Source: Reyranella sp.
Lineage (GTDB): Bacteria > Pseudomonadota > Alphaproteobacteria > Reyranellales > Reyranellaceae
Assembly (NCBI GenBank): GCA_004296815.1
Contig: SCVT01000150.1
Coordinates: 1 to 20,545 of the forward strand
Direction: 5' to 3'
Length of the DNA stretch: 20,545 nucleotides
Part shown: piece by piece, positions 7,048 through 19,874 of the stretch
Position numbering within the stretch: position 1 is the stretch's first letter
Layout: the number at the start of each line of letters is the position of its first letter
The notes under the pieces: generated by a model
Told to the model about the DNA's origin: nothing
Seen by the model: the letters and a program-made list of their open reading frames with translations, nothing else
Database searches by the model: none
Made by a program: the position numbers and the translations under genes

Positions 7048-8025
7048 GTGAAATTTCCCCGTCGCTCATTCATTCATATGTCCGTGGCTGGTGCCGCGCT
7101 GCCGGCCGTGCCCGGCATTGCGCGGGCGCAAGCCTATCCGTCGCGACCGGCCCGCATCGTCGTCGGCTTTCCCGCCGGTGGCGCCACCGACATCATGGCG
7201 CGCCTGATGAGCGACTGGCTGACCGAGCGCGTCGGCCAGCAGTTCCTCGTTGAGAACAAGCCCGGCGCCAGCGGCAGCATCGGGACAGAGACGGTCGCCA
7301 AGGCAGCCCCGGATGGCTACACGCTGCTACAGGCCGTGACGCCGAATGCGATCAATCCGGCGCTCTACAGCAATCTCGGTTTCGATTTCATCCGGGACTT
7401 CGCGCCAGTCATCTACCAGGCGCGGCTGGCCTACGTCGTCGTCGTCAATCCGTCGGTCCCCGCCAAGACGCTCCCCGAGCTCATCGCCTACGCCAAGGCC
7501 AACCCGGGCAAGATCAACTACGGGTCGGCCGGCCAAGGCACGCCGCAGAACATCACCTGCGAACTCTTCAAGATGATGACCGGGGTGAACCTGGTCCACG
7601 TCCCCTACAAGGGCGGTGCGCCCGCGGTCGCCGATCTGATCGCTGGCCACGTGCAGGTGGTCTTCGCGCCCCTCTCGGAATCGATCCCGCAGATCAAGGC
7701 CGGCAAGCTGCGCGCCCTGGCGGTAACGCCCGTGAAACGTCTGGACGTGCTGCCGGACGTTCCGACGATCGCCGAGTTCGTGCCGGGCTATGAGGCCAGC
7801 GGCTTTGCCGGTATCAGCGTGCCCAAGGGCACGCCGGCCGACGTCATCGATCTGCTGAACAAGCAGCTCAATGCCGCCCTCGCCGACCCCAAGATCAAGG
7901 GCCGGATCGAAGAGCTGGGCGGCACGGTGATGGGGGGCACGCCGGCGGAATTCGGCAAGCTCGTCGCGGACGCCACCGAGAAGTGGGCGAAGGTCATCAA
8001 GGCCGCGGGCATCAAGCCCGAATAG
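7048..8025 (+). CDS. Bug/TctC family tripartite tricarboxylate transporter substrate-binding protein
   Basis: A 325-residue periplasmic binding protein of the Bug family (TctC, PF03401), which captures small carboxylates for TctAB-type carriers or acts as a sensor. It starts at GTG 7048, placed by a perfect GGAGG (7036-7040) seven bases upstream. The N-terminus has a twin-arginine-like signal (PRRSFIH, residues 4-10), a hydrophobic stretch and cleavage probably after ARA (residue 27). Family blocks are VVGFPAGGATDIMARL (around 38-53), VENKPGASGSIGTE, KAAPDGYTLL and VPYKGGAPAVADLIAGHV. It is an orphan: no TctA or TctB genes are in the window. It lies 148 bp before the ABC unit and diverges from the chaperedoxin gene. 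The ligand is unknown. Confidence 0.94.
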   Translation: MKFPRRSFIHMSVAGAALPAVPGIARAQAYPSRPARIVVGFPAGGATDIMARLMSDWLTERVGQQFLVENKPGASGSIGTETVAKAAPDGYTLLQAVTPNAINPALYSNLGFDFIRDFAPVIYQARLAYVVVVNPSVPAKTLPELIAYAKANPGKINYGSAGQGTPQNITCELFKMMTGVNLVHVPYKGGAPAVADLIAGHVQVVFAPLSESIPQIKAGKLRALAVTPVKRLDVLPDVPTIAEFVPGYEASGFAGISVPKGTPADVIDLLNKQLNAALADPKIKGRIEELGGTVMGGTPAEFGKLVADATEKWAKVIKAAGIKPE

Positions 8026-8085: not shown

Positions 8086-8123
8086 TTGACTCGTCAAACC
8101 TCGAATGTCCTAATGTCATAACA
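8086..8123 (+). promoter_or_regulatory. Candidate promoter and GntR/HutC operator of the ABC-lyase-hydratase unit
   Basis: TTGACT (8086-8091) resembles a -35 element and is part of the dyad TTGAC-TC-GTCAA (8086-8097). TAATGT (8111-8116) is a weak -10 with a long 19-bp spacer. Overlapping it, TGTCATAACA (8114-8123) is a dyad TGT-N-AT-N-ACA resembling the GTN(x)TATN(y)AC consensus of HutC-type GntR regulators, one of which is encoded in the same unit at 11537. AATGTC is also repeated directly at 8104 and 8112. Autoregulation is an inference from these matches. Confidence 0.35.
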
Positions 8124-8133
8124 ATAGAAGAGC

Positions 8134-8151: not shown

Positions 8152-8176
8152 AACATGATGTTCCTGGGAGGGAATG

Positions 8177-9160
8177 ATGAAGGCATTGAAAGCCACCATT
8201 CGTGCGCTCGCACTCGCGGGCCTTGGTCTCGCGTCGGCAACGGCTGCCCGCGCCGAGGATATCGTCGTCACGCATTACGGCTCGCTGCTCTACGGCGTGC
8301 CCTACGCGATCGCGATGGAGAAGGGCTACTTCAAGCAAGCCGGCGTCGACATCACGGGCATCCTGACCTCCAAGGGCGGCGGCACCTCCGTGCGCAACAT
8401 GATGGCGGGCGACACGCTGTTCGCCGAAGTGGCGCTGCCGGCGGCGCTCAGCGCCATCAAGGAAGGCTTCAACATCAAGATCATCAGCGGCGGCACCGAC
8501 GGCCGCAGCAGCTTCTGGGTGACGCGGCCCAACGAGGCGATCGACAAGGCCGCCGACCTCAAGGGCAAGCGCTTCGTCTATTCCCGGCCGAAGTCGGTGA
8601 GCGAGAGCATCACGCTTGCGGTCCTGAAGTCGTGGGACGTCCCTGTCGCCGACGTGAAGATGGTAGCGATCGGCGATTTCGGCGCGGGCCTCACGGCGCT
8701 CGAGCACAACAAGATCGATATCGCGATCATCCCCGAGCCGATCTACTCCCAGAAGGAGAAGGCCGGGGTGAAGTACAAGGTCCTGCCGTGGCTGGACGAG
8801 AAGCTGCCGGCCTACGCGCAGACGGTGGGCATCGCGACCGACGAGGCCATCGCCAAGCATGGGCCGAAGCTCAAGGCGGTCATCGAGGCGCGCCGCAAGG
8901 GCGTCGAGTTCCTCTATGCCAACCCCAAGGAGTCGGCCGCCATCCTGGCCAAGGCCTACAACCTGCCACCCGACGTCGCCGCCAGCGCCATCAACAACAT
9001 CCTCAAGATGAACCCGACCTGGTGGAACCATGGCGAGCTGAAGCAGCCGCTGATGGAAGCCATGGCCGAGGCCCTGGGCTCGGTCGGCGCGTTGCAGCTT
9101 CCGATCGACTGGAAGGCCGCGATCAACGCGAGCTTCCTGCCGCCGGCGAAGACGCAATAA
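8177..9160 (+). CDS. ABC transporter substrate-binding protein, SsuA/NMT1 (THI5)-like
   Basis: A 327-residue periplasmic binding protein for an ABC importer. A type I signal peptide is clear (basic start, LALAGLGLASATAARA, cleavage before ED, about residue 26). The mature part has the features of the SsuA/TauA/NMT1 group: GVPYAIAMEKGYFKQAGVDI near the start, GGTSVRNMMAGD, a hinge-like DLKGKRFVYSRPKSVSE, and a late WKAAINASFLPP. Two ATGs are adjacent (8174 and 8177); the GGAGG at 8167-8171 is two bases from the first and five from the second, so I favour 8177. Its stop overlaps the ATPase start (TAATG). First gene of an eight-gene unit. The group binds sulfonates, pyrimidine precursors, nitriles or aromatic and aliphatic acids; the ligand here is inferred from the downstream enzymes to be an organic acid. 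Confidence 0.93.
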   Translation: MKALKATIRALALAGLGLASATAARAEDIVVTHYGSLLYGVPYAIAMEKGYFKQAGVDITGILTSKGGGTSVRNMMAGDTLFAEVALPAALSAIKEGFNIKIISGGTDGRSSFWVTRPNEAIDKAADLKGKRFVYSRPKSVSESITLAVLKSWDVPVADVKMVAIGDFGAGLTALEHNKIDIAIIPEPIYSQKEKAGVKYKVLPWLDEKLPAYAQTVGIATDEAIAKHGPKLKAVIEARRKGVEFLYANPKESAAILAKAYNLPPDVAASAINNILKMNPTWWNHGELKQPLMEAMAEALGSVGALQLPIDWKAAINASFLPPAKTQ

Positions 9161-10014
9161 TGGCGAGCGTTCAGCGCCTGGCGGCGGTCGACGCTGCCTC
9201 GGCACCCAACATCCATGCGCGTCTCGACGGCGTGACGCGCGTCTACCCGCCGCGTGCCGGCCATGCCGAGGTCCATGCGCTGGGCCCGCTGTCGCTCGAC
9301 CTGCGCGCCGGCGAATTCTTCAGCGTCGTCGGCCCCTCGGGTTGCGGCAAGTCGACCCTGCTCGACGTCCTGGCGGGCCTCGCCGTGCCCTCGGCCGGGA
9401 CTGTCGAGTTCGAAGGCAAGCGCGTGCTGGGCGAGGTGCCGGACGGTGTCGGCGTGGTCTTCCAGGAGGATGCGAGCTTTCCCTGGCTGACGGTCGACGA
9501 CAACGTCGCCTTCGGCCTGCGCCGCTCCGGTGTCGATGCCGCAGAGATCAAGCGTCGCGTCGATTTCGCCATCGGTTTCATGGGCCTGCGCGATTTCCGG
9601 CGGGCCTATCCCAGCCAGCTCTCGGGCGGCATGCGCCAGCGCGTCTGCATCGCGCGCACGCTGGTGCTGCAGCCGCGCCTGATCCTGCTCGACGAGCCGT
9701 TCGGGGCACTCGACCAGCAGACACGGCTCCTGATGGGCGACGAGCTGCTGCGGCTGTGGCGCGAGACCTCGGCCACGGTCCTGCTGATCACCCACGCGCT
9801 CGACGAGGCCAATCTTCTCTCCGACCGCATCGGCGTCATGTCGGCGCGTCCTGGCGTTTTCATCGACATCGTCGAGACGGGCTGGCCGCGCGACCGCGAT
9901 TCGCGCCTCGCTGAACGGCCCGACTTCGGCGCGGTGACCTCGCGGCTCTGGTCGTTCCTGCGTGGCGAATCGCTGCGCGCGCTGGGGCAGGGAACGGCGG
10001 CGGCAGCAAGATGA
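9160..10014 (+). CDS. ABC transporter ATP-binding protein (nitrate/sulfonate/taurine type)
   Basis: A 284-residue ATPase that powers the importer at the inner membrane. Walker A is GPSGCGKST (58-66); the Q-loop is VVFQED; the signature is LSGGMRQR; Walker B with catalytic glutamate is LILLDEPFGALD; the switch histidine is in LLITHALDEA. These variants are typical of the SsuB/TauB group. The ATG overlaps the binding-protein TAA by one base, and its TGA overlaps the first permease start by four bases (10011-10014), so translation is coupled. The C-terminal tail of about 45 residues after the switch region fits the family. Function is confident; substrate follows the binding protein. Confidence 0.95.
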   Translation: MASVQRLAAVDAASAPNIHARLDGVTRVYPPRAGHAEVHALGPLSLDLRAGEFFSVVGPSGCGKSTLLDVLAGLAVPSAGTVEFEGKRVLGEVPDGVGVVFQEDASFPWLTVDDNVAFGLRRSGVDAAEIKRRVDFAIGFMGLRDFRRAYPSQLSGGMRQRVCIARTLVLQPRLILLDEPFGALDQQTRLLMGDELLRLWRETSATVLLITHALDEANLLSDRIGVMSARPGVFIDIVETGWPRDRDSRLAERPDFGAVTSRLWSFLRGESLRALGQGTAAAAR

Positions 10015-10760
10015 GCAAAGCCGGCTGGATCCGCACCGTCGTGCTGGTCGCCGCCGTCGGCGCGCTGGAGATCGCCTGTCGTACCGGCGCGATCCCCGCC
10101 ACCATGGTGGTCGCGCCGTCCGTCATGGTGCTGGCGCTGGTCCATACGCTGCAGTCCGACGAGATCGGCATGCATCTCCGCCACACGCTCTCGGCCGTGG
10201 CGATTGCGATGAGCCTGTCGATCGTCGGCGGCTTCATCATCGGCTTCATCCTGAACTGGGTGCCCTTCCTGCGCCGCGCCTTCAGTCCCTTCCTCGCGGC
10301 CTACTACGCCATCCCGCACTTCGCCTTCTACCCGCTGCTGATCGTGATCTTCGGCCTCGGCCCCTTGCCGCTGATCGTGCTGGCGACCCTGTTCGCCATG
10401 GTCGCCATGATCCTCGCCACCATGGCCGGGCTCGACCGCGTGCCGCGCGTGCTGCTCAAGACGGCGCGCATCCATCGCCTGTCGCTGCTTCAGGAGATCT
10501 GGCGCGTACGCCTGCCGGCCGCCGCGCCGCACATCCTGTCCGGGCTGAAGCTCGCGGTGGCCTATTCCTTCATCGGCGTGATCGCCGGCGAGTTCATCCT
10601 GTCGACCAGCGGCATCGGCCACGAGATCGCCTTCGCCTACGACAATTTCGACAACAAGCGCATGTACGCCCTAATCCTGTTCGTGCTGGCGATCGTCACC
10701 ACCTTCAACATGGCGGTCTTCGCCTGGGAACGGCGCATGCTGCGCCGGCGCGGCGCATGA
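10011..10760 (+). CDS. ABC transporter permease (SsuC/TauC-like), first of two
   Basis: A 249-residue inner-membrane permease of the BPD_transp_1 family with about six hydrophobic segments. The cytoplasmic coupling (EAA-like) loop is visible as LLKTARIHRLSLLQEIWRV, followed by RLPAAAPHILSGLKLAVAYSFIGVIAGEF, typical of SsuC/TauC permeases. It overlaps the ATPase gene by four bases and the second permease by four bases (10757-10760). Two different permease genes in one unit indicate a heterodimeric membrane channel, less common in this transporter group, where a single permease often forms a homodimer. Confidence 0.94.
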   Translation: MSKAGWIRTVVLVAAVGALEIACRTGAIPATMVVAPSVMVLALVHTLQSDEIGMHLRHTLSAVAIAMSLSIVGGFIIGFILNWVPFLRRAFSPFLAAYYAIPHFAFYPLLIVIFGLGPLPLIVLATLFAMVAMILATMAGLDRVPRVLLKTARIHRLSLLQEIWRVRLPAAAPHILSGLKLAVAYSFIGVIAGEFILSTSGIGHEIAFAYDNFDNKRMYALILFVLAIVTTFNMAVFAWERRMLRRRGA

Positions 10761-11533
10761 GCCGGGGCCTGCTTTCGCTGCGCGCCTGGCGTGACCCCAT
10801 CCTCGTCGCGATCTCGCTGGTCGCGCTGTGGCAGGTCCTGCACGAGATCGCGGGCGATTCCGCCGTCACCGCGCCCGCCCCGACGCTGTCGCATCTCTGG
10901 GAGATGATCGGCCAGACGCGCTTCCTGCCGCATCTGCGCGAGACCGGCCTCGCTTTCCTGCAGGCGCTGGCCATCGCCTTCGGCGGCGGCGTGCTGCTGG
11001 GCGTCGTGCTGGGCGGCCACAAGCTCACCGGCGAGGTCGCCGAGCCGATCCTGGTGGCGCTCTACTCGATCCCCAAGATCACGCTCTACCCGGTGATCCT
11101 GCTGCTGTTCGGCCTCGGCATGCCGGCCAAGGTGGCGTTCGGCGCGCTGCACGGCATCATCCCGGTGGTGCTGTTCACCATGAACGCCGTGCGCAACGTC
11201 AACCGCACCTATCTCCGTGCCGGCCGCGCCATGCGGCTCTCGCCGGCACAGACCGGCTGGCACATCCTGGTGCCCGCGACCCTGCCCGAGATTTTCTCCG
11301 GCCTGCGCATCGGCTTCTCGCTCACTTTGCTCGGCACCATGCTGGGCGAGCTGTTCGCCTCGCAGCGCGGCCTGGGCTTCCTGCTGATGACGGCGATCGA
11401 CCTGCACGACGTGAAGACCATCCTGGCCATCGCCGTCCTGATCTCGGCCTTCGCCGTCGCGACCAATGCCGCGCTGCTCGCCATCGACCGGCACCTGCAT
11501 CGCGGCGCGGCCGCGGACAGTTCAGGGAAGTAG
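10757..11533 (+). CDS. ABC transporter permease (SsuC/TauC-like), second of two
   Basis: A 258-residue permease paralogous in form to the preceding one. Hydrophobic segments alternate with the coupling loop YLRAGRAMRLSPAQTGWHILV, and then PATLPEIFSGLRIGFSLTLLGTMLGELFAS, the SsuC-type block. The ATG at 10757 overlaps the stop of the first permease; an open frame extends far upstream in this phase but only inside the two preceding genes. The stop (11531-11533) is three bases before the GntR start. It presumably pairs with the first permease and the single ATPase. Confidence 0.94.
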   Translation: MSRGLLSLRAWRDPILVAISLVALWQVLHEIAGDSAVTAPAPTLSHLWEMIGQTRFLPHLRETGLAFLQALAIAFGGGVLLGVVLGGHKLTGEVAEPILVALYSIPKITLYPVILLLFGLGMPAKVAFGALHGIIPVVLFTMNAVRNVNRTYLRAGRAMRLSPAQTGWHILVPATLPEIFSGLRIGFSLTLLGTMLGELFASQRGLGFLLMTAIDLHDVKTILAIAVLISAFAVATNAALLAIDRHLHRGAAADSSGK

Positions 11534-11536
11534 GGC

Positions 11537-12325
11537 ATGGACCGCATCGCCGTCCGCCGCGAGCTGGGATCGCCACTCCACCATCAGATCTATCTCGTGC
11601 TGGCCGATGGCATCTCGACCGGCCGCTACGGCGTGGGCGAGGTGCTGCCGACCGAGGAGCAGCTCACCCGCATGTTCAGCGTGTCGCGGATCACCGTGCG
11701 CCGCGCCATGGAGAGCCTGAACGATGCCGGCCTGATCGAGCGCGGCGCCGGCCGCCGCACCGTGGTGCGCGCCCAGCTCGGTCGGCCGATGCGCATGACG
11801 ATGAACTCGGTCATCGAGAACATCGTGGCCTACGGCAGCGAGACCGACGCCAGGGTCGTCGAGTTCGGCTATGTCGAGGCCCGCGGTGTTGTGCTCGACC
11901 GGCTATGGCAGGCGGCGGAGAAGCCCGTGCAGCGTGCGGTGCGCGTGCGCAGCCACGAGGGCGTGCCGATCATGCATCTCACCAGCTACGTGCCGTCGGC
12001 GCTCGGCGAGACCTTCACCGCCGACGATCTCAACCGCATCCCGATGTTCCAGCTGCTGGCCCGCGCCGGCGCGCACCTCGCGCGCGGCGACCAGGTCGTC
12101 TCGGCGACGCTCGCCGACCCGACCGTGGCCTCGCGTCTGGCCGTCAAGGTCGGTGCGGCGCTGATCGACATGCGCCGCATGATGTTCGACCAGAAGGGCC
12201 GCGCCGTCGAATATATCGAGATGCTGGCCGTCCCCGACCGCATGACCATGCGCATGGAGCTGGGCTCCGGCCACATCGCCTCGGCAAAAGCCAAACGGAA
12301 ACCGTCGCGCACCAACCGCAAGTGA
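11537..12325 (+). CDS. GntR family transcriptional regulator, HutC subfamily (UTRA domain)
   Basis: A 262-residue regulator. Residues about 10-78 form the winged helix-turn-helix, with LPTEEQLTRMFSVSRITVRR (37-56) as the DNA-reading part and AMESLNDAGLIERGAGR after it. Residues about 95-240 form a UTRA effector domain (chorismate lyase fold), with VPIMHLTSYVP and the terminal VEYIEMLAVPDRMTM typical of HutC-type repressors. The lysine/arginine-rich last 15 residues are unusual but short. The gene sits inside the unit between the importer and the enzymes, three bases after a permease stop, which argues that it senses the imported compound or a pathway intermediate and represses the unit. A possible operator is at 8114-8123. 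Confidence 0.93.
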   Translation: MDRIAVRRELGSPLHHQIYLVLADGISTGRYGVGEVLPTEEQLTRMFSVSRITVRRAMESLNDAGLIERGAGRRTVVRAQLGRPMRMTMNSVIENIVAYGSETDARVVEFGYVEARGVVLDRLWQAAEKPVQRAVRVRSHEGVPIMHLTSYVPSALGETFTADDLNRIPMFQLLARAGAHLARGDQVVSATLADPTVASRLAVKVGAALIDMRRMMFDQKGRAVEYIEMLAVPDRMTMRMELGSGHIASAKAKRKPSRTNRK

Positions 12326-12339
12326 GAGAGGGAACCCTC

Positions 12340-13209
12340 ATGTCCAACGCCGCCAAGCTCCGCACGCTGCTCGCGTCGAAGAAGATGATCGTGGCCCCCG
12401 GCGCCATCGACTGCATCACCGGTCGCGCCATCGCCCAGGCGGGCTTCTCCGCCGTCTACATGACCGGCGCCGGCACCTCGGCGACGCTGGGCTATCCGGA
12501 CTACGGCCTCATCACCATGAGCGAGATGGTGGGCAACGCCTCGCGCATCGTGAACTCGATCGACATCCCGCTGATCAGCGACAGCGACACCGGCTTCGGC
12601 AACGAGCTCAACGTCTTCCGCACCGTGCAGGAGTTCGAGCGCGCCGGCGTCGCCGCCATCCACATCGAGGACCAGGTGTTCCCGAAGAAGTGCGGCCATC
12701 TCGACAACAAGGAGCTGGTGAGCCGCGAGGACTTCATCGCCAAGATCCGCGCCGCCTCGGCCGCCCGCAAGACGAAGGACTTCTGCATCATCGCCCGCAC
12801 CGACTCGCGCGCGGTGGTGAGCCTCGACGAGGCGGTCGAGCGCGCCAACGCAGCCCTCGCGGCCGGTGCCGACGTGGCCTTCGTCGAGGCTCCGCAGACC
12901 ATGGCCGAGATCGAGGCCGTGCCGAAGCGCGTGAAGGGGCCGTGCCTGCTGAACATCGTGCGCGGCGGCAAGACGCCCGAGATCGAGCTCGAGACGGCCG
13001 AGCGCATGGGCTACGCCATTTCCATCGTGCCGGGCCTGCTGCTGGGCGGCATCATCTCGACCTGCGACCGCCTGCTGGGCGACCTCAAGCAGGGCAAGTT
13101 CCCGCCGGTCACCGGCTCGCCCGGCAAGACCTTCGCCCGCTTCGGCGCCGCCGAATGGGACGAGCGCCGCACCGCCTTCCGCGACCCGATCAAAGCCGCC
13201 GCCGAGTAG
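12340..13209 (+). CDS. Isocitrate lyase/PEP mutase superfamily C-C lyase (2,3-dimethylmalate lyase/methylisocitrate lyase-like)
   Basis: A 289-residue TIM-barrel enzyme of the ICL/PEPM superfamily. Visible active-site elements are Y40-TGAGTS (40-47), GYPDYGLITM (51-60), the metal ligands in SDSDTGFGN (D81, D83), HIEDQVFPKKCGH (108-120) with E110 and the catalytic cysteine C118, and later NIVRGGKTPEIE. The KKCGH motif marks true lyases (isocitrate, methylisocitrate, dimethylmalate) and is absent from PEP mutase. Short length excludes isocitrate lyase proper; GYPDYGL and GGKTP look more like dimethylmalate lyase than PrpB. Such enzymes cleave a 2-hydroxy dicarboxylate to a 2-oxo acid plus a second acid with Mg2+. 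It starts 14 bp after the regulator, with GAGAGAGGGAA upstream, and is followed by a LeuCD-like hydratase, which could supply its substrate. Often mislabelled carboxyphosphonoenolpyruvate phosphonomutase. Confidence 0.9.
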   Translation: MSNAAKLRTLLASKKMIVAPGAIDCITGRAIAQAGFSAVYMTGAGTSATLGYPDYGLITMSEMVGNASRIVNSIDIPLISDSDTGFGNELNVFRTVQEFERAGVAAIHIEDQVFPKKCGHLDNKELVSREDFIAKIRAASAARKTKDFCIIARTDSRAVVSLDEAVERANAALAAGADVAFVEAPQTMAEIEAVPKRVKGPCLLNIVRGGKTPEIELETAERMGYAISIVPGLLLGGIISTCDRLLGDLKQGKFPPVTGSPGKTFARFGAAEWDERRTAFRDPIKAAAE

Positions 13210-13221
13210 GGAGTTCGTGCC

Positions 13222-14625
13222 ATGGCCGCCGCAGCGCGCACGATGTTCGAGAAGATCTGGCAGCGTCACATCGTCGTCGACCGACCCGACGGCTACACGC
13301 TGCTCTATATCGACCGCCATTTGATGCATGACGGCTCGGCGGCGGGCTTCGCCAAGCTGCGCGAGCGCGGCATCAAGCTGCGCCGGCCCGATCGCGGCTT
13401 CGCGACGCCCGACCACTATGTGAAGAGCGACAGCCGCTCGGTCGCGGCGATCGCCGATCCGCATCACCGCGCGCTGGTCGAGGCGATCCGCACCAACACC
13501 GCCGAGAGCGGCGTCACGCTGTTCGATCTCGGCGACGAGCGGCAGGGCATCGCCCATGTCGTCGGCCCCGAGCAGGGCGTGACTCAGCCCGGCCTGACGC
13601 TGGTCTGCGGCGACAGCCATACCTCGACGCACGGCGCGCTGGGCGCACTCGCCTTCGGCATCGGCTCGTCCGAGGTGGCGCATGTCATGGCGACCGAGTG
13701 CCTGTGGCAGAGGAAGCCCAAGGCGATGCGGGTCAGCGTCGACGGCACCCTGGGTGAGGACATCACGGGCAAGGACGTGATCCTGGCGATCATCGCCAAG
13801 ATCGGCACCGCCGGCGCGGTCGGCCACGTCATCGAATATACCGGCAGCGCGATCCGCGGCCTGTCGATCGAGGGCCGGCTCACCGTCTGCAACATGTCCA
13901 TCGAGGCCGGCGGCAAGGCCGGCATGGTGGCGCCCGACGACACGACCATCGCCTACATGAAGGGCCGGCCCTTCGCGCCCAAGGAAGCCGAATGGGACAA
14001 GGCGGTCGCCTTCTGGCGCACGGTGCCGAGCGACGAGGGCGCCGTCTTCGACCGCGACGTCAGCCTCGACGCCGCGTCGATCGCGCCGATGGTCACCTGG
14101 GGCACCAGCCCCGAGGACGCGCTGTCGATCACCGGCCGCATCCCCGAGCCGTCGACGGCGCCTGATGCCGCCAAGAAGGACAGCATGAAGCGCGCGCTCG
14201 ACTATATGGGGCTGACACCGGGCACGCCGCTCGAGCAGGTTCCCGTCGATCGCGTCTTCATCGGCTCCTGCACCAACAGCCGCATCGAGGACCTGCGCGC
14301 GGCGGCCAAGGTCGCCAAGGGCCGCAAGGTCGTGATCCCCTCCTGGGTGGTCGCGGGCTCCGGCCTGGTGAAGAAGCAGGCCGAGGCGGAAGGGCTCGAC
14401 AAGATCTTCGTCGAGGCGGGCTTCGAATGGCGCGAGCCCGGCTGCTCGATGTGCGTCGGCATGAACGGCGACACCGGCAAGCCGCAGCAGCGCATCGCGT
14501 CCACCTCAAACCGCAACTTCATCGGCCGTCAGGGACCGGGCGTGCGCACGCACCTGCTCAGCCCGGCGATGGCGGTGGCCGCGGCCGTCACCGGCCACTT
14601 CGCCGACGTCCGCAAGCTCGCCTAG
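13222..14625 (+). CDS. leuC: 3-isopropylmalate dehydratase-like large subunit (LeuC family)
   Basis: A 467-residue aconitase-family large subunit with a [4Fe-4S] cluster, closely matching bacterial LeuC in length and layout: [10 protein letters not shown] and LLYIDRHL at the start, [35 protein letters not shown], and [14 protein letters not shown]. Cluster ligands are C350 (FIGSCTNSR) and C408 and C411 (PGCSMC). The enzyme removes and re-adds water across a 2-/3-hydroxy dicarboxylate. Isopropylmalate isomerisation is the default reading, and LeuCD enzymes are also known to hydrate citraconate and maleate. Its place between a C-C lyase and LeuD in an importer unit, with no leuA or leuB, suggests a catabolic paralogue. 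Spacing is 12 bp on each side, with GGGAG before the ATG. The symbol records the family, not a proven leucine role. Confidence 0.9.
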
Positions 14626-14637
14626 GAGGCAACGACC

Positions 14638-15240
14638 ATGGAAGCCTTCACCACCCTCGACGCGGTCGCCATTCCGATCGACCAGCCGAACCTCGACACC
14701 GATCAGATCATCCCGGCGCGCTTCCTCGGCAAGCCGCGGCCCACCCAGGTCGAGGCACTGTTCCACGACCTGCGCTACACGCCCGACAAGAAACCGCGGC
14801 CGGAGTTCGTCACCAACATGCCGGCGTACCAGGGTGCGCGCATCGTGGTGGCGGAACGCAACTTCGCCTGCGGCTCCTCGCGCGAGAACGCCGTCACGGT
14901 GATGGTCGACAACGGCCTGCGCGCCTTCATCGCGCCGAGCTTCGGCGACATCTTCTTCAACAACTGCTTCCAGAACGGCGCGCTGCCGATCCGCCTCGAT
15001 GCCAAGCGCGTGGCGGAGATCCGCGCGGCGCTGCATGCCAAGCCGGGATCGACGGTGAAGATCGACCTCGCCAGCCAGACCGTGACCGGCCCCGACGGGA
15101 AGGCCGACCGGTTCGAGATCGATTCCTTCCGCAAGGACTGCCTGCTGAAGGGCGTCGACGAGGTGAACCTGACCTTGGGCTACGAGAAGGACATCGCGGC
15201 CTTCGAAGCGAAGCAGCGCCAGGAGATGAGCTGGCTGTAG
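14638..15240 (+). CDS. leuD: 3-isopropylmalate dehydratase-like small subunit (LeuD family)
   Basis: A 200-residue small subunit that completes the active site of the LeuC-type dehydratase (swivelling domain). NLDTDQIIPARFLG (18-31) and ERNFACGSSRENA (about 75-87) are the family blocks, followed by APSFGDIFFNNCFQNGALPI. The substrate-recognition loop after IIP reads ARFLGKPRPTQVEALFHDLRY, where classical LeuD has a KQFL...RTG sequence; this change lies where substrate choice is made and supports a different substrate. GGAGG (14625-14629) is eight bases before the ATG. It is the last gene of the unit: its stop abuts a dyad and an intrinsic terminator follows 75 bp later. As with the large subunit, the symbol denotes family. 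Confidence 0.9.
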   Translation: MEAFTTLDAVAIPIDQPNLDTDQIIPARFLGKPRPTQVEALFHDLRYTPDKKPRPEFVTNMPAYQGARIVVAERNFACGSSRENAVTVMVDNGLRAFIAPSFGDIFFNNCFQNGALPIRLDAKRVAEIRAALHAKPGSTVKIDLASQTVTGPDGKADRFEIDSFRKDCLLKGVDEVNLTLGYEKDIAAFEAKQRQEMSWL

Positions 15241-15257
15241 TGCTTGCACTGCAAGCA
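15241..15257 (+). repeat. 17-bp perfect dyad abutting the leuD stop codon
   Basis: TGCTTGCA and TGCAAGCA (15241-15248 and 15250-15257) are perfect 8-bp arms around one C. An overlapping shorter dyad, AGTGC-TT-GCACT, spans 15239-15250 and includes the end of the TAG stop. As RNA it can fold as a 7-bp stem with a 3-base loop. It is not T-tailed. It may be a protein site or an mRNA 3'-end structure. Confidence 0.5.
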
Positions 15258-15315
15258 ATCGCTGACGGCAGCGTGAGTTGCAGGTTCAGCAGGTTCTGAT
15301 AGAAATCATGTATAA

Positions 15316-15346
15316 GCTGGCGCTTCTTGCGCCGGCCTTTTTTGTT
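15316..15346 (+). terminator. Intrinsic terminator of the ABC-lyase-hydratase unit
   Basis: GCTGGCGC (15316-15323) and GCGCCGGC (15329-15336) form an 8-bp stem with one G-U pair around TTCTT, followed by C and six T (15338-15343), then GTTT. This is a textbook Rho-independent terminator 75 bp past the LeuD stop, closing the plus-strand unit. Confidence 0.88.
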
Positions 15347-15988: not shown

Positions 15989-17203
15989 CTACCCCAAAGC
16001 GCCCGACTTTTTGAGGGCGTCGATCTCGTCGGCGGAGAAGCCCGCCTCGGCGAGCACCTCGTCGTTATGCTGGCCGACGGCGGGCGGGGGCCCCGCCTTG
16101 CGGGGGCGTGCGAAGCCCAGGCGAATGGGATTGTTCACCGTGCGCGGGATCTCGGGATTGTCGGTATCGGCGAAGATGCCGGCATGGGCCGCCTGCTCGT
16201 CGTCGACCACGTCGGCCAAGCGCCCGATCACGCCGAACGGGATGCCGGTGCCGGCGAGCGCCTGTTCCCACTCCGCGAAAGTGCGCGAGGCGAAGACGGG
16301 CTTCAGGATCGCGAGCAGGTCCATCGCATGGGCGCGGCGCTCGGGGCGTCCGGCGAACCGCTCGTCCTGCAAGAGCTCGGGCCGGTCGATGACGGCGCAG
16401 AACTTCTCCCAGAGCCGATCGTCGCGCACCATCAGGAGCTGCAGCCAGCGATCGTCCTTCGTCCGGTAGAGGTTGGTCAGCGCATTGCCCGGCCGGTCGG
16501 GGCCGCGGCGCGGCGGCAGCTTCGCGCCGAGCAGCGCGCCCGCGGCCGAGGTGCCGTTGGCCCACACGCCGTTGGCGTAGAGTGAGGTGCCGACCCAGCC
16601 GCCCTTGCCGGTCTGGTCGCGTCGCCTGAGACCGAGAAGGATCGCGGCGACCAGCGTCATCGCCGTCGCGCGGTCGCCCTGCGCCGGCAGCGAGAGGCCG
16701 GGCGGGCCGTCCTCGTAGCGCGCGGCGTCGAGGATGCCGGAGCGGCCGAAATAGGCGGTGATGTCGAAGCCCGGCCGGTCGCGGTCGGGGCCGGTTTCGC
16801 CGTAGCCGGTGAGCGAGCAATAGACGAGGCGCGGGTTCAGCGGCTCGATGTCCTCCCAGCGGAGCCGCAGCCGTTCGCGTGCCGGCGGCGGGAAGTTCAC
16901 GATCATCACGTCGGCGGTCTTGATGAGCCGCTCGAGGACGGTGCGGGCGCCGTCGGTCTTGAGATCGAGGGCGAGCGAGCGCTTGTGGCGGCCGTCGAGC
17001 TGCCACGGGAAATTATGCTCGCTCTGCGGGTAGCTGGCGTTGCGGAAGCTGTTGCGGTGCGGGTCGCCGTCGACCGGCGGCTCGATCTTGATCACGTCGG
17101 CGCCGAAATCGGCGAGCGCGACCGCCGCCGCGGGCGCGGCGATGAACGAGCTGACGTCGAGAACCTTCAGCCCGGCAAGCGGCAGAGGCTCATCGCTGCT
17201 CAT
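15989..17203 (-). CDS. Class III (CaiB/BaiF) CoA-transferase, second of tandem pair
   Basis: A 404-residue cytosolic CoA-transferase of the formyl-CoA transferase/CaiB family (PF02515), which moves CoA between carboxylic acids through an aspartyl-CoA intermediate. The N-terminal LPLAGLKVLDVSSFIAAPAA, GADVIKIEPP and DGRHKRSLALDLK blocks are typical. LTGYGETGPDRDRPGFD places the likely catalytic aspartate at D148. NLYRTKDDRWLQL and GIPFGVIGRLADVVDDEQ mark the C-terminal part. The ATG at 17201-17203 overlaps the stop of the upstream paralogue (ATGA); the frame stays open to 17809 but only as a shadow of that gene. The two proteins share most motifs almost word for word, so they arose by duplication and may act as a heteromer. 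Substrates unknown. Confidence 0.93.
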   Translation of the reverse strand: MSSDEPLPLAGLKVLDVSSFIAAPAAAVALADFGADVIKIEPPVDGDPHRNSFRNASYPQSEHNFPWQLDGRHKRSLALDLKTDGARTVLERLIKTADVMIVNFPPPARERLRLRWEDIEPLNPRLVYCSLTGYGETGPDRDRPGFDITAYFGRSGILDAARYEDGPPGLSLPAQGDRATAMTLVAAILLGLRRRDQTGKGGWVGTSLYANGVWANGTSAAGALLGAKLPPRRGPDRPGNALTNLYRTKDDRWLQLLMVRDDRLWEKFCAVIDRPELLQDERFAGRPERRAHAMDLLAILKPVFASRTFAEWEQALAGTGIPFGVIGRLADVVDDEQAAHAGIFADTDNPEIPRTVNNPIRLGFARPRKAGPPPAVGQHNDEVLAEAGFSADEIDALKKSGALG

Positions 17204-18411
17204 CTGACGGCGCCGCTCGCCTTGAGGCTTGCGATCTCCTGCGCGCTGAGCCCGGCCTCGCGCAGGATCTCCTCGCTGTGCTCGCCCAGCGCCGGCGCGG
17301 GCTTCGCGATTCGCTGCGTGGCGAAGCCGAGGCGGATCGGGTCGGCGAGCGTGCGCGGCATGTCGGGGATCGCCGTCTCGACGACGGCGCCGCAGGCCAC
17401 GGCCTGCTGGTCGTCGGGCACGTCCTGCGGGCGGCTGATGACGCCGAAGGTGACGGCCTCCGCCGCCAGCGCATCGCGCCAATGCTCGTAGGGCTTCGTT
17501 GCGAACGTCTTGCTCAGGATCGCCGCCAGCTCGGGCGCGTTGGCGCGGCGCTCGGGCTCCTTGGCGAAGCGCGGATCGTCGATCAGGGCGTCGAGGCCCA
17601 TCGCCTTGCAGAGCGGCGCCCACAATTTGTCGGCGCGCACGATGGTGAGCTGCAGCCAGCGATCGTCCTGGGTGCGGTAGATGTTGCCCAGCGCCGAGCG
17701 CGGCCGGTCGGGCGGCGGGCGATGCGGCAGGAACGCGCCGACGAGCGCGGCCTGGGCGATGACGCCGCACGACCACAGGCCGTTGCCGAGCAGCGATGTG
17801 CCGACCCACGAGCCTTCGCCGGTCTTGGTGCGATGCATCAGCGCCATCAGGATCGCCGAGACGAGCGTCATCGCCGTCGCACGGTCGCCCTGCGCGGGGC
17901 CGGGTACGCCCGGCGGCCCACCTTCGTAACGCTGCGCGTCGAGGAGGCCGGAGCGGGCGAAGTAGGCGGTGGCGTCGAAGCCCGGACGGTCGCGATCCGG
18001 GCCGCTCTCGCCGTAGCCCGTCAGCGAGGCGTAGATCAGCTTCGGGTTCACCTTCTTCACGTCGTCGTAGGCGAGCTTCAGCTTGTCGCGCACCGGCGGC
18101 GGGAAGTTGCAGATCAGGATGTCGGTGTTCACCAGCAGCCGATCGAGCGCGGCCCGCGCCTCGGCCTGCTTGAGGTCGAGCACGAGGGAGCGCTTGTTCC
18201 GCGAATCCATCTGCCAGGGGTAGTTGACCGCGCTTTTCGGGTAGTTCGACGAATCGTGCATGATCCGGCGGTTGGGGTCGCCGTCGGGGCCCTCGATCTT
18301 GATCACCTCGGCGCCCCAGTCGCCCAGCACGGTGGCCGCCGCGGGGGCGGCGATGAACGAGCTGATGTCGAGTACGCGCAAACCTGCCAGCGGCAGGGCA
18401 GAATGGGCCAT
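17200..18411 (-). CDS. Class III (CaiB/BaiF) CoA-transferase, first of tandem pair
   Basis: A 403-residue paralogue of the following gene, with the same order of motifs: LPLAGLRVLDISSFIAAPAA near the start, GAEVIKIEGPDGDPN (about 33-47), NKRSLVLDLK, LTGYGESGPDRDRPGFD with probable catalytic D146, NIYRTQDDRWLQL, and VTFGVISRPQDVPDDQQ. By eye over half of positions agree with the neighbour. The pair resembles in arrangement the two-subunit succinyl-CoA:malate/citramalate CoA-transferase SmtAB of Chloroflexus, also tandem class III genes, although no matching citramalyl-CoA lyase is seen here. The start ATG (18409-18411) has only a weak ribosome site. It diverges from the sulfatase with 50 bp between starts, so regulatory sequences must overlap. 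Confidence 0.93.
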   Translation of the reverse strand: MAHSALPLAGLRVLDISSFIAAPAAATVLGDWGAEVIKIEGPDGDPNRRIMHDSSNYPKSAVNYPWQMDSRNKRSLVLDLKQAEARAALDRLLVNTDILICNFPPPVRDKLKLAYDDVKKVNPKLIYASLTGYGESGPDRDRPGFDATAYFARSGLLDAQRYEGGPPGVPGPAQGDRATAMTLVSAILMALMHRTKTGEGSWVGTSLLGNGLWSCGVIAQAALVGAFLPHRPPPDRPRSALGNIYRTQDDRWLQLTIVRADKLWAPLCKAMGLDALIDDPRFAKEPERRANAPELAAILSKTFATKPYEHWRDALAAEAVTFGVISRPQDVPDDQQAVACGAVVETAIPDMPRTLADPIRLGFATQRIAKPAPALGEHSEEILREAGLSAQEIASLKASGAVR

Positions 18412-18461
18412 GGAAGAAATCCCCGTTTTGCTGATACTAGCGCGGGGCTGAAGAGGTGGAC

Positions 18462-19874
18462 ATGGCGGCGAAGCGGACTGCGAAACGCAAACCCAATTTC
18501 CTGATCGTCCTGATCGACGATCTCCGGTTCGACGAGCTGGGCATCTGCGGCCATCCCTACATGAAGACGCCGCACATCGATCGTATCGGCCACGAAGGCG
18601 CGATGTTCACCTCGGCGTTCCACACCACGCCGCTCTGCTCGCCCAACCGCGCCTCGATCCTGACCAGCCAGTATGCGAGCCGGCACGGCATCATCGACAA
18701 TGTGGCGCGCGACGCGCACAGCCATCGCCTGCCGAACTACCACGTGATCCTGCAGCGCCTGGGCTATGAGACCGCGCATGTCGGCAAGTGGCACATGGGC
18801 AATTCGGGCGGCCCGCGTCCGGGCTACGACAGGTGGGTGAGCTTCCCGGGCCACGGCTCGATCTTCAACCCGGTGCTGAACATCGACGGCGACGAGCGCC
18901 AGCACCAGGGCTACATCACCGACCTTCTCAACCAGCATGCCGTCGACTTCCTGAAGAAGAAGCACGACAAGCCGTTCGCGCTCTTCCTTGCGCACAAGGC
19001 CGTGCATCCCGACGCCTTCCAGGCGCCCGACGGCACGATCGACCTCAGCAAGGGCGGCTACGGCGTGCCCGAGCGCCACAAGGACCTCTACAAGGGCGAG
19101 CACTTCCCACTGCCGCCGAGCGCACTGCCGTACGACGAGGTGGTGAAGCAGAAGCCCGCGTGGAAGGAAGCGTTCGAGCTGAAGGTGAACGAGGCCTCGC
19201 GCGCGGTGCTCGACGGCATCGGCGCCGGCACGCAGGAGGAGATTCGCCTGCGCGCCGCGATGATGGCGTCGGTCGACGAAGGCATGGGCGACATTTTCAA
19301 GGTGCTCGAGGAGACCGGCGAGCTCGACAACACCTTCATCCTGTTCCTGGGCGACAATGGCTACTTCTTCGGCGAACACGGGCTGGGGCCGGAGCGCCGC
19401 TTCGCCTACGAGGAAGGCATCAAGTCGCCGTTCCTCATCCGCTATCCGACTTGGTTCAAGGCAGGGACCGTGAACGACGAGTTGGTGCTGGCGCTCGACA
19501 TTGCGCCGACGCTCGTGGACCTCGCCGGCGGCAAGGAAGCCGACTTCAAGACGATGCAGGGCCTGTCGCTGAAGCCGCTGGCTAGGGGCGCCAAGCCGAA
19601 AGGTTGGCGCACCTCGTTCATGTGCGAATACTTCAGCGAGAACGCCATGCCGTGGCTGGTGGGCATGAGCTACAAGGCGATCCGCACGCGGCGCCACAAG
19701 TACATCCACTGGACGCAGAAGTCGCTCGACGGCGTGGACTGCGACGAGCTCTACGATCTCAAGAGCGATCCCTACGAGATGCACAACTTGATCGGCAAAC
19801 GCAGCGAACGGCCGACCGTCGCGCGATTGCGCAAACAGCTCGCGGCCCTGGTCGCGCAGTCGGTGGGGCTATGA
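18462..19874 (+). CDS. Sulfatase family (S1, FGly-type) hydrolase, no signal peptide
   Basis: A 470-residue enzyme of the alkaline phosphatase superfamily. The formylglycine signature is TTPLCSPNRASILTS, with C59 to be converted by FGE and R63 conserved. Calcium ligands are D19 and D20 in IDDLRFDE, and D298 and N299 in LGDNGYFFGEHGL. GKWHMG holds the active-site lysine and histidine. The C-terminal LYDLKSDPYEMHNLIG is the usual family ending. It hydrolyses a sulfate (or possibly phosphonate) ester; the substrate is unknown, and the CSPNR context is shared by choline- and aryl/glycan-sulfatases. The N-terminus (MAAKRTAKRKPNF) is basic without a hydrophobic core, so it is probably cytosolic. 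AGAGG (18452-18456) five bases before the ATG at 18462 fixes the start; a GTG at 18456 is less likely. Divergent from the CoA-transferases. Confidence 0.93.
   Translation: MAAKRTAKRKPNFLIVLIDDLRFDELGICGHPYMKTPHIDRIGHEGAMFTSAFHTTPLCSPNRASILTSQYASRHGIIDNVARDAHSHRLPNYHVILQRLGYETAHVGKWHMGNSGGPRPGYDRWVSFPGHGSIFNPVLNIDGDERQHQGYITDLLNQHAVDFLKKKHDKPFALFLAHKAVHPDAFQAPDGTIDLSKGGYGVPERHKDLYKGEHFPLPPSALPYDEVVKQKPAWKEAFELKVNEASRAVLDGIGAGTQEEIRLRAAMMASVDEGMGDIFKVLEETGELDNTFILFLGDNGYFFGEHGLGPERRFAYEEGIKSPFLIRYPTWFKAGTVNDELVLALDIAPTLVDLAGGKEADFKTMQGLSLKPLARGAKPKGWRTSFMCEYFSENAMPWLVGMSYKAIRTRRHKYIHWTQKSLDGVDCDELYDLKSDPYEMHNLIGKRSERPTVARLRKQLAALVAQSVGL

Follow-up and report, generated by a model that had tools for sequence, protein, structure and literature searches.

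The anaerobic fermentation of nicotinate uses the hydratase DmdAB together with 2,3-dimethylmalate lyase (Dml), and in leucine synthesis LeuCD catalyses an isomerisation. Aerobic pseudomonads growing on alkylgentisate precursors are said to hydrate alkylmaleates and to cleave alkylmalates (work attributed to Hopper, Chapman and Dagley, around 1971), and a LeuCD-like maleate hydratase was reportedly described in 2015. Here we describe a gene cluster of Reyranella sp. located on contig SCVT01000150.1 (assembly GCA_004296815.1; 20,545 nucleotides, hereafter the window), which corresponds to contig C722 in a 770-contig genome with a completeness of 89.5%. The cluster encodes the same pair of enzyme superfamilies as the DmdAB/Dml system; in contrast to that anaerobic system, the enzymes of the window are linked with an ATP-binding cassette (ABC) importer and a GntR regulator. 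We propose, with a probability of roughly 0.45, that the cluster is a GntR-controlled operon for the uptake and coenzyme A (CoA)-free breakdown of 2-methyl-branched maleate or malate compounds, with pyruvate and either acetate or propionate as the products.

Pseudomonas has a cluster for itaconate and (S)-citramalate (Ict, Ich, and Ccl; PA0878-PA0886) that resembles this proposal: according to PMC9875883, it handles methyl-branched C5 diacids, has its own transporter and ends at pyruvate plus a two-carbon unit. Unlike the proposed route, it uses CoA esters, and the same study reports no growth on (R)-citramalate or citraconate. Wild-type Pseudomonas putida KT2440 could use none of the branched diacids offered in that study.

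Gene content and proposed pathway

The unit comprises eight plus-strand genes (8177-15240). Their layout, with overlaps of 1, 4, and 4 bp and gaps of 3, 14, 12, and 12 bp, reproduced exactly that given in an earlier note on this DNA, and the family scans agreed with its domain assignments for all eight genes:

8177..9160, plus strand: NMT1/SsuA-type periplasmic binding protein (family scan; alternative ATG at 8174)
9160..10014, plus strand: ABC importer ATPase (ABC_tran; family scan)
10011..10760, plus strand: ABC importer permease 1 (BPD_transp_1; family scan)
10757..11533, plus strand: ABC importer permease 2 (BPD_transp_1; family scan)
11537..12325, plus strand: GntR/HutC-type regulator (GntR and UTRA; family scan)
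12340..13209, plus strand: lyase of the isocitrate lyase (ICL)/phosphoenolpyruvate mutase (PEPM) superfamily with a KKCGH loop, outside the PrpB branch (family scan, residues, tree)
13222..14625, plus strand: accessory LeuC-like hydratase large subunit (family scan, tree)
14638..15240, plus strand: accessory LeuD-like hydratase small subunit with PARFL and SSRENAV (family scan, motifs)
15316..15336, plus strand: terminator-like hairpin, then CTTTTTTGTT (hairpin scan)

Judging from the gene spacing, the eight genes are likely transcribed as a single unit. The terminator claimed earlier for the end of the unit was found again as a hairpin of 8 pairs, 7 of them G-C, although this class of site is weak evidence by itself because the window contains six of them versus a mean of 3.8 in shuffled sequences. 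Upstream conservation favours the second ATG (8177) over that at 8174 as the start of the binding protein.

In the proposed pathway, the NMT1-type importer would take up a small branched dicarboxylate, either 2-methylmaleate- or 2-methylmalate-like. Maleate- and malate-type forms would be interconverted by the LeuCD-like iron–sulfur hydratase, for example citraconate with (R)-citramalate, or dimethylmaleate with 2,3-dimethylmalate. The lyase would then cut the C2-C3 bond without CoA, giving pyruvate and acetate from citramalate or pyruvate and propionate from dimethylmalate, and the GntR protein would repress a promoter at about 8086-8125 until a ligand occupies its UTRA domain.

Affiliation and pocket residues of the lyase

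The lyase belongs to the PEP_mutase and ICL families and carries a K-K-C-G-H loop. Its top solved relatives are the dimethylmalate lyase (DML) of A. niger (E 3e-52) and 4iqd (4e-52), a trivial difference, followed by oxaloacetate acetylhydrolase (OAH; 2e-50), a methylisocitrate lyase (3e-48), and the petal death protein (8e-46), which acts on alkylmalates. In the numbering of E. coli PrpB, which is used throughout, the metal and loop residues Asp58, Asp85, Asp87, Glu115, Cys123, Gly124, His125, and Arg158 are kept, so that the metal site and the KxCGH loop are common to PrpB and the lyase of the window. The two differ in the loss of Arg241 and in the exchanges S45T and G47A. Phe186 and Pro236 represent the state of both PrpB and DML (Leu and Ser in the solved OAH). 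At position 241, the window enzyme and DML have Gly and PrpB has Arg; the pocket residues therefore follow a DML-like pattern (Phe186, Pro236, no Arg241) and are shared with the solved fungal enzyme. Arg241 of PrpB presumably holds the succinate part of the substrate, Ser at position 236 is taken by us as a marker of oxaloacetate hydrolases, and the retained pocket residues are presumably linked with a pyruvate product. Taken together, the residues, with their presumed roles, favour a substrate with a methyl group at C2, yielding pyruvate, and no charged substituent at C3.

In a quick tree calculated without bootstraps, from which the out-of-frame row own_C236 was excluded, the lyase falls into its own clade of 55 rows (Shimodaira–Hasegawa-like approximate likelihood ratio test, SH-aLRT, 99) away from PrpB. 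This clade lies on the side of A. niger DML and C. parasitica OAH (SH-aLRT 93, with a long-branch warning). The option that the enzyme acts solely as oxaloacetate decarboxylase or methylisocitrate lyase, named in the earlier note as a refuting outcome, appears weakened by residues and tree. The identity as oxaloacetate hydrolase was set low because of Pro at position 236, where the solved OAH has Ser, and so was that as PrpB, given the missed prpB cut-off, Gly at position 241, and the branch position.

A variant of the 2-methylcitrate cycle, with the lyase as methylisocitrate lyase and LeuCD as methylaconitase, would fit the observation that, among the NCBIfam models, the lyase scores highest with prpB. 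The score of 256 bits, however, stays below the cut-off of 354; together with the loss of Arg241, the position on the tree, and the lack of citrate synthase and PrpD among the eight genes, this makes such a variant very unlikely. In PMC9804861, a Variovorax gene inside a methylcitrate cluster is labelled dml.

An isocitrate lyase-like route, in which LeuCD turns a 2-alkylmalate into a 3-alkylmalate and the lyase releases glyoxylate and a fatty acid, would draw on the established isomerisation by LeuCD and on the membership of isocitrate lyases in the family of the lyase. Positions 234 and 236, which we take to match L521 and S523 of the A. fumigatus enzyme, are occupied by Ile and Pro and not by the Phe and Thr of isocitrate lyases, and we consider this route unlikely. 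In PMC11982470, L521 and S523 of A. fumigatus PrpB are described as possible selectivity positions, Phe and Thr in ICL, at which changes had minor effects only.

Somewhat less probable is the handling of maleate and D-malate or of oxaloacetate, for instance at the end of the gentisate pathway, with LeuCD as maleate hydratase and the lyase as oxaloacetate decarboxylase or malate-type enzyme. The oxaloacetate decarboxylase PA4872 is indeed related to the lyase (E 1e-31), but it is a far weaker match than DML, and no gentisate-pathway family was detected in the scanned window genes or in the 25 listed of 109 families from 102 scanned neighbours. In favour of this option, a maleate hydratase of the gentisate pathway, reportedly LeuCD-like, has been published; the 2015 paper on it is cited in PMC12294151.

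Separation of the LeuCD pair from the leucine enzyme

The LeuC-like protein belongs to the Aconitase family (leuC model 674 bits, cut-off 560) and the LeuD-like protein to the Aconitase_C family (leuD model 191 bits, cut-off 116). Both subunits exceed the NCBIfam cut-offs, as those of leucine LeuCD do; for comparison, E. coli leuC and leuD reach 938 and 344 bits and the LeuB-linked LeuC of Reyranella 784 bits. The LeuD motifs, in contrast, are PARFL and SSRENAV versus PKQFL and SSREHAP in the leucine type. HAP after SSRE was found in 10 of 15 LeuB-linked sequences (four without, one unread), in none of the 60 lyase-linked sequences, in none of the three linked with both, and in 8 of 47 linked with neither.

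Two further LeuC genes (54 and 56% identical to that of the window) are present in the same genome. Its LeuB lies on contig C718 next to a LeuD gene that is truncated by the contig end, so the leucine LeuC of this strain was probably lost in an assembly gap. Among 25 genomes of the genus, for which the counts depend in part on kinship, 15 (including that of the window) encode a LeuC with 75% or higher identity to the window copy (in G013 the match covers residues 39-466). All 24 genomes other than that of the window possess a separate LeuC (59-65% identity) on the same contig as LeuB and less than 3 kb apart from it, seen as fragments in G020 and G022. The window-type lyase (at least 77% identity) was detected in 11 of these 25 genomes, each of which also carries the window-type LeuC; a twelfth genome, G022, has a lyase fragment at a contig end (L101).

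A quick LeuC tree without bootstraps (118 of 143 rows after removal of near-copies) placed the window in a set of 44 rows (SH-aLRT 95), of which 36 are lyase-linked, two are linked with lyase and LeuB, and six with neither. E. coli LeuC and 10 LeuB-linked rows are found in a separate set of 23 rows (SH-aLRT 100), and a second set of 16 rows includes 11 lyase-linked ones (SH-aLRT 96). Five more LeuB-linked rows from Acetobacteraceae and other Rhodospirillales metagenome-assembled genomes (MAGs) fall elsewhere, so LeuB linkage does not form one clade, and lyase linkage requires 14 changes on this tree.

Because of the separate LeuB-linked LeuC in all 24 other genomes and the changed LeuD motif, LeuC and LeuD of the window are accessory and distinct from the leucine pair, as the earlier note implied; the additional LeuC genes in the same genome, the separate clade, and the absence of HAP all agree with that. 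That they might be spare leucine genes next to an unrelated lyase is suggested by the passed equivalog cut-offs and by 7 of the 80 loci, in which LeuB and LeuC are no more than 2.5 kb apart. Two of these, L024 and L039, also have an adjacent lyase and sit in the LeuC set of the window. Against the separate clade, the altered motifs, the conserved linkage to the lyase, and the LeuB-linked copy elsewhere in the genus, this explanation retains very little probability, less than any other considered here.

Activities beyond leucine synthesis are described for this enzyme type in two papers: isopropylmalate isomerase Leu1 of yeast accepts citraconate as an artificial substrate (PMC4942693), and maleate hydratase activity is tied to a leuC product of Methanocaldococcus (PMC8307300).

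Conservation of the gene neighbourhood

For the neighbourhood analysis, the best 80 loci were taken from 554 LeuC relatives confirmed in named genomes. The nine closest (92-95% identity) belong to Reyranella and related MAGs or strains. Genes outside the window were called with a home-made codon score, which misses genes (no LeuC was called in L029-L031, L076, L079, and L084); the counts therefore rest on tblastn matches. A full importer was defined as a binding protein, an ATPase with more than 60% identity, and two permease matches.

Of the 80 loci, 52 have a lyase no more than 1 kb from LeuC and 55 have one anywhere in the locus; all 26 loci with a full importer have the lyase within 1 kb. 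Of the 25 loci lacking a lyase match, L045 and L056 are truncated by the end of their contig immediately ahead of LeuC; in L045, the contig starts there and a lyase would not be visible. By LeuC identity, the counts are as follows: at 83% or more, the lyase is present in 17 and the importer in 14 of 18 loci; at 70-82%, in 21 and 7 of 26; and below 70%, in 14 and 5 of 36. The arrangement itself varies. Regulator, permeases, ATPase, and binding protein are divergent from lyase-LeuC-LeuD in L024 and L043, the importer is convergent on the other side of the enzyme block in L049, L051, L070, L075, and L083, and it is placed after LeuD in L078. That the linkage is kept through rearrangement argues for a functional bond, and the gene order is not unique to this strain, which bears out the predicted conservation.

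The importer was also searched for independently of LeuC, using the binding protein in 387 genomes of the class and the ATPase in 397 genomes of the phylum. Both searches scored at most five or six candidates per genome, so importers may be missed. At least 26 binding-protein matches were obtained in 24 genomes. The five importers within the genus (window, L131, L221, L222, and L223) all adjoin GntR and lyase, and four of them adjoin LeuCD. The ATPase search yielded five importers, of which the two newly seen (L173 and L174) have neither lyase nor LeuC nearby. Neighbours of the importer family include TauD, RraA-type aldolase, and thiamine pyrophosphate (TPP)-dependent enzymes. Since lyase and LeuC are near only some importers, the importer family is wider than this pathway.

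In the survey of lyase-bearing loci, 134 neighbouring proteins (one per cluster, up to 600 residues) were collected and 102 of them family-scanned; two further sets of 20 neighbours each were scanned individually. The commonest families were MFS (5 of 102), Amidohydro_3 (3 of 102), and TauD (2 of 102), and no single extra partner enzyme emerged among the 102 proteins (25 of 109 families listed). A lyase scan of viral contigs gave three pattern matches, none of them related.

Several side observations concern these loci. L032, L037, L041, and L042 have LeuCD of the window clade and no lyase in the locus; HlyD/MFS efflux-like genes adjoin LeuCD in L032, L037, and L041 and a CitMHS-type transporter in L032, L041, and L042 (one representative per cluster scanned). 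TPP-dependent enzymes occur near LeuCD or the importer family in L082, L087, L088, L212, L217, and L220 (L082 and L212 scanned). In L142, two lyases stand in tandem beside TctC and a TauD-type dioxygenase. L136, from the same genus, contains a different lyase-LeuC-LeuD triple (56, 52, and 41% identical) with no importer match in 18 kb.

Observations weighing against the proposed pathway

The following points weigh against the proposed breakdown of methyl-branched diacids. The assignment of the substrate is indirect. The passed leuC and leuD cut-offs belong here, as does position 213 of the lyase, which is Arg in the window and Glu in E. coli PrpB as well as in all five solved fragments of the comparison. 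Among the 52 lyases linked with LeuC, ten share no more than 50% identity with the window enzyme (L028-L031, L043, L062, L087, and L089-L091), and one of them, L043, is among the 26 importer loci. On the tree, L028-L031 and L062 fall on the PrpB side, L043 and L091 group with a paralogue from the genome of the window, and L087, L089, and L090 form a small separate group.

The coupling to LeuCD is also looser than expected. In G012, approximately 2.3 Mb of the contig separate lyase and importer (L131) from the LeuCD copy (L132), a distance that supports co-retention yet counts against strict operon membership. With importer, GntR, and lyase alone in L131, LeuCD may be an optional branch. Among the 21 importers outside the genus (36-53% identity), a lyase homologue is found in the fetched stretch of 8 (L172, L203, L205, L206, L207, L208, L216, and L220) and a LeuC homologue in that of 4 (L208, L216, L219, and L220), the stretches of L207, L210, L217, L219, and L220 being shortened by contig ends. 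The fixed coupling of importer and LeuCD implied in the earlier note is not supported on these grounds. Furthermore, the lyase stands beside TctC and a TauD-type dioxygenase in L044, L046, L048, L054, L055, L142, and L144. These loci are not explained by a pure hydratase route; TauD-type hydroxylation is perhaps a second route to the lyase substrate.

Importer, regulator, and upstream region

The binding protein is of the NMT1 type. Its best NCBIfam model, SsuA_fam, reaches 94 bits against a cut-off of 164, less than an SsuA sulfonate importer would require; it passes Pfam Phosphonate-bd with 29 versus 27. His34, Arg74, Ser141, and Arg240 are kept in all 22 aligned binding proteins (window and 21 relatives, 38-91% identical), a pattern whose pair of invariant arginines would suit an anionic ligand.

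These model scores, the TauD genes adjoining the lyase in several loci, and the PEP-mutase family of the lyase could also point to phosphonate or sulfonate metabolism with an organosulfur or organophosphorus substrate. The KKCGH loop and the pocket residues, however, suit C-C lyases, phosphonopyruvate hydrolase matches weakly (E 2e-31), and no C-P lyase or sulfite-handling family was detected in the scanned window genes; we regard this explanation as improbable.

The regulator combines GntR and UTRA domains, with HutC as the best NCBIfam model (102 bits, cut-off 220). Upstream of the binding-protein gene, an alignment of 15 regions (binding protein at least 83% identical) revealed a conserved, putative promoter/operator-like element at 8086-8125:

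8086..8091, plus strand: TTGACT, putative −35 box (alignment of the 15 upstream regions)
8109-8114, plus strand: CCTAAT, possible −10 box with a 17-base spacer (position relative to TTGACT)
8104..8125, plus strand: AATGTCCTAATGTCATAACAAT, conserved operator-like element, candidate GntR site (upstream alignment, motif scans)

All 15 regions share TTGACT and AATGTCCTAATGTCATAACAAT with small changes, with 12 bases between them in the window. A sigma-70 consensus scan of the window did not pick up the putative −35 box at 8086. In L025, the element is a perfect inverted repeat (ATTGTC-N10-GACAAT), which is imperfect in the window. At up to three mismatches, WTGTCNTRATGTCATRACAAT matched once in the window and in none of 100 shuffles. 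Across 1,702,391 bases of the loci, 20 copies of the core ATGTYATRACAAT were found, each 29-118 bases before a binding-protein match; these are 17 distinct places because L019/L143, L033/L138, and L040/L140 each represent one genome. The count is in part circular, since the core was derived from the 15 aligned regions, 14 of which carry it (not L133). It was further detected in 6 of 7 other regions with a binding protein 70-78% identical (not L131), and the exact core in none of 12 regions with a more distant one. In L061 and L073 (Albimonas), the binding protein is preceded by related sequences that lack the exact core. In both L024 and L043, where binding protein and lyase diverge, the gap separating them contains TGTTGTTATCAT.

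Flanking genes

A gene for a TctC/Bug-type binding protein (7048-8025) lies directly upstream of the putative promoter, and TctC homologues were found in 16 of the 80 LeuC loci. On the 3′ side of the unit (15989-19874), there are two genes for class III (CaiB-type) CoA-transferases (minus strand) and a sulfatase gene (plus strand); the same three genes are located 3′ of LeuCD in L020, L023, and L045. A family scan of nine further window genes gave no pathway lead.

Relation to known chemistry and implications

A cluster of lyase, isopropylmalate dehydratase, and NMT1/ABC importer was not found in the literature covered, which left most subscription papers outside its scope, so it may be published. 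A text search of PMC12290011 gave no hit for LeuC, isopropylmalate, isocitrate lyase, or ABC transporter, and one of PMC9765439 gave nothing relevant to the unit.

The gentisate maleate hydratase and the older pseudomonad enzymes for alkylmaleates and alkylmalates reportedly perform aerobic maleate hydration followed, for the alkyl forms, by cleavage. No gentisate genes were seen among the scanned window genes. Given this chemistry, attributed to the work of about 1971 and of 2015, the statement that no aerobic pathway of this kind has been described is not supported as it stands. The unit is real and conserved, and it is a new arrangement, or gene set, for a known kind of chemistry.

A more far-reaching proposal, which we consider doubtful, is that the operon represents the (R)-side counterpart so far missing for the (S)-citramalyl-CoA route, free of CoA and with its own importer for citraconate and (R)-citramalate and perhaps for larger 2-alkyl-3-methylmaleates. 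A new clade of ICL/PEPM lyases would cleave the alkylmalate to pyruvate and a free acid and would be paired, depending on the lineage, with the LeuCD hydratase or a TauD-type dioxygenase as the alkylmalate-making step. A gene set for the (R)-side would help to rename LeuCD and "PEP mutase" paralogues that are now called leucine or phosphonate genes, and it would represent a cassette that is testable in a laboratory strain.

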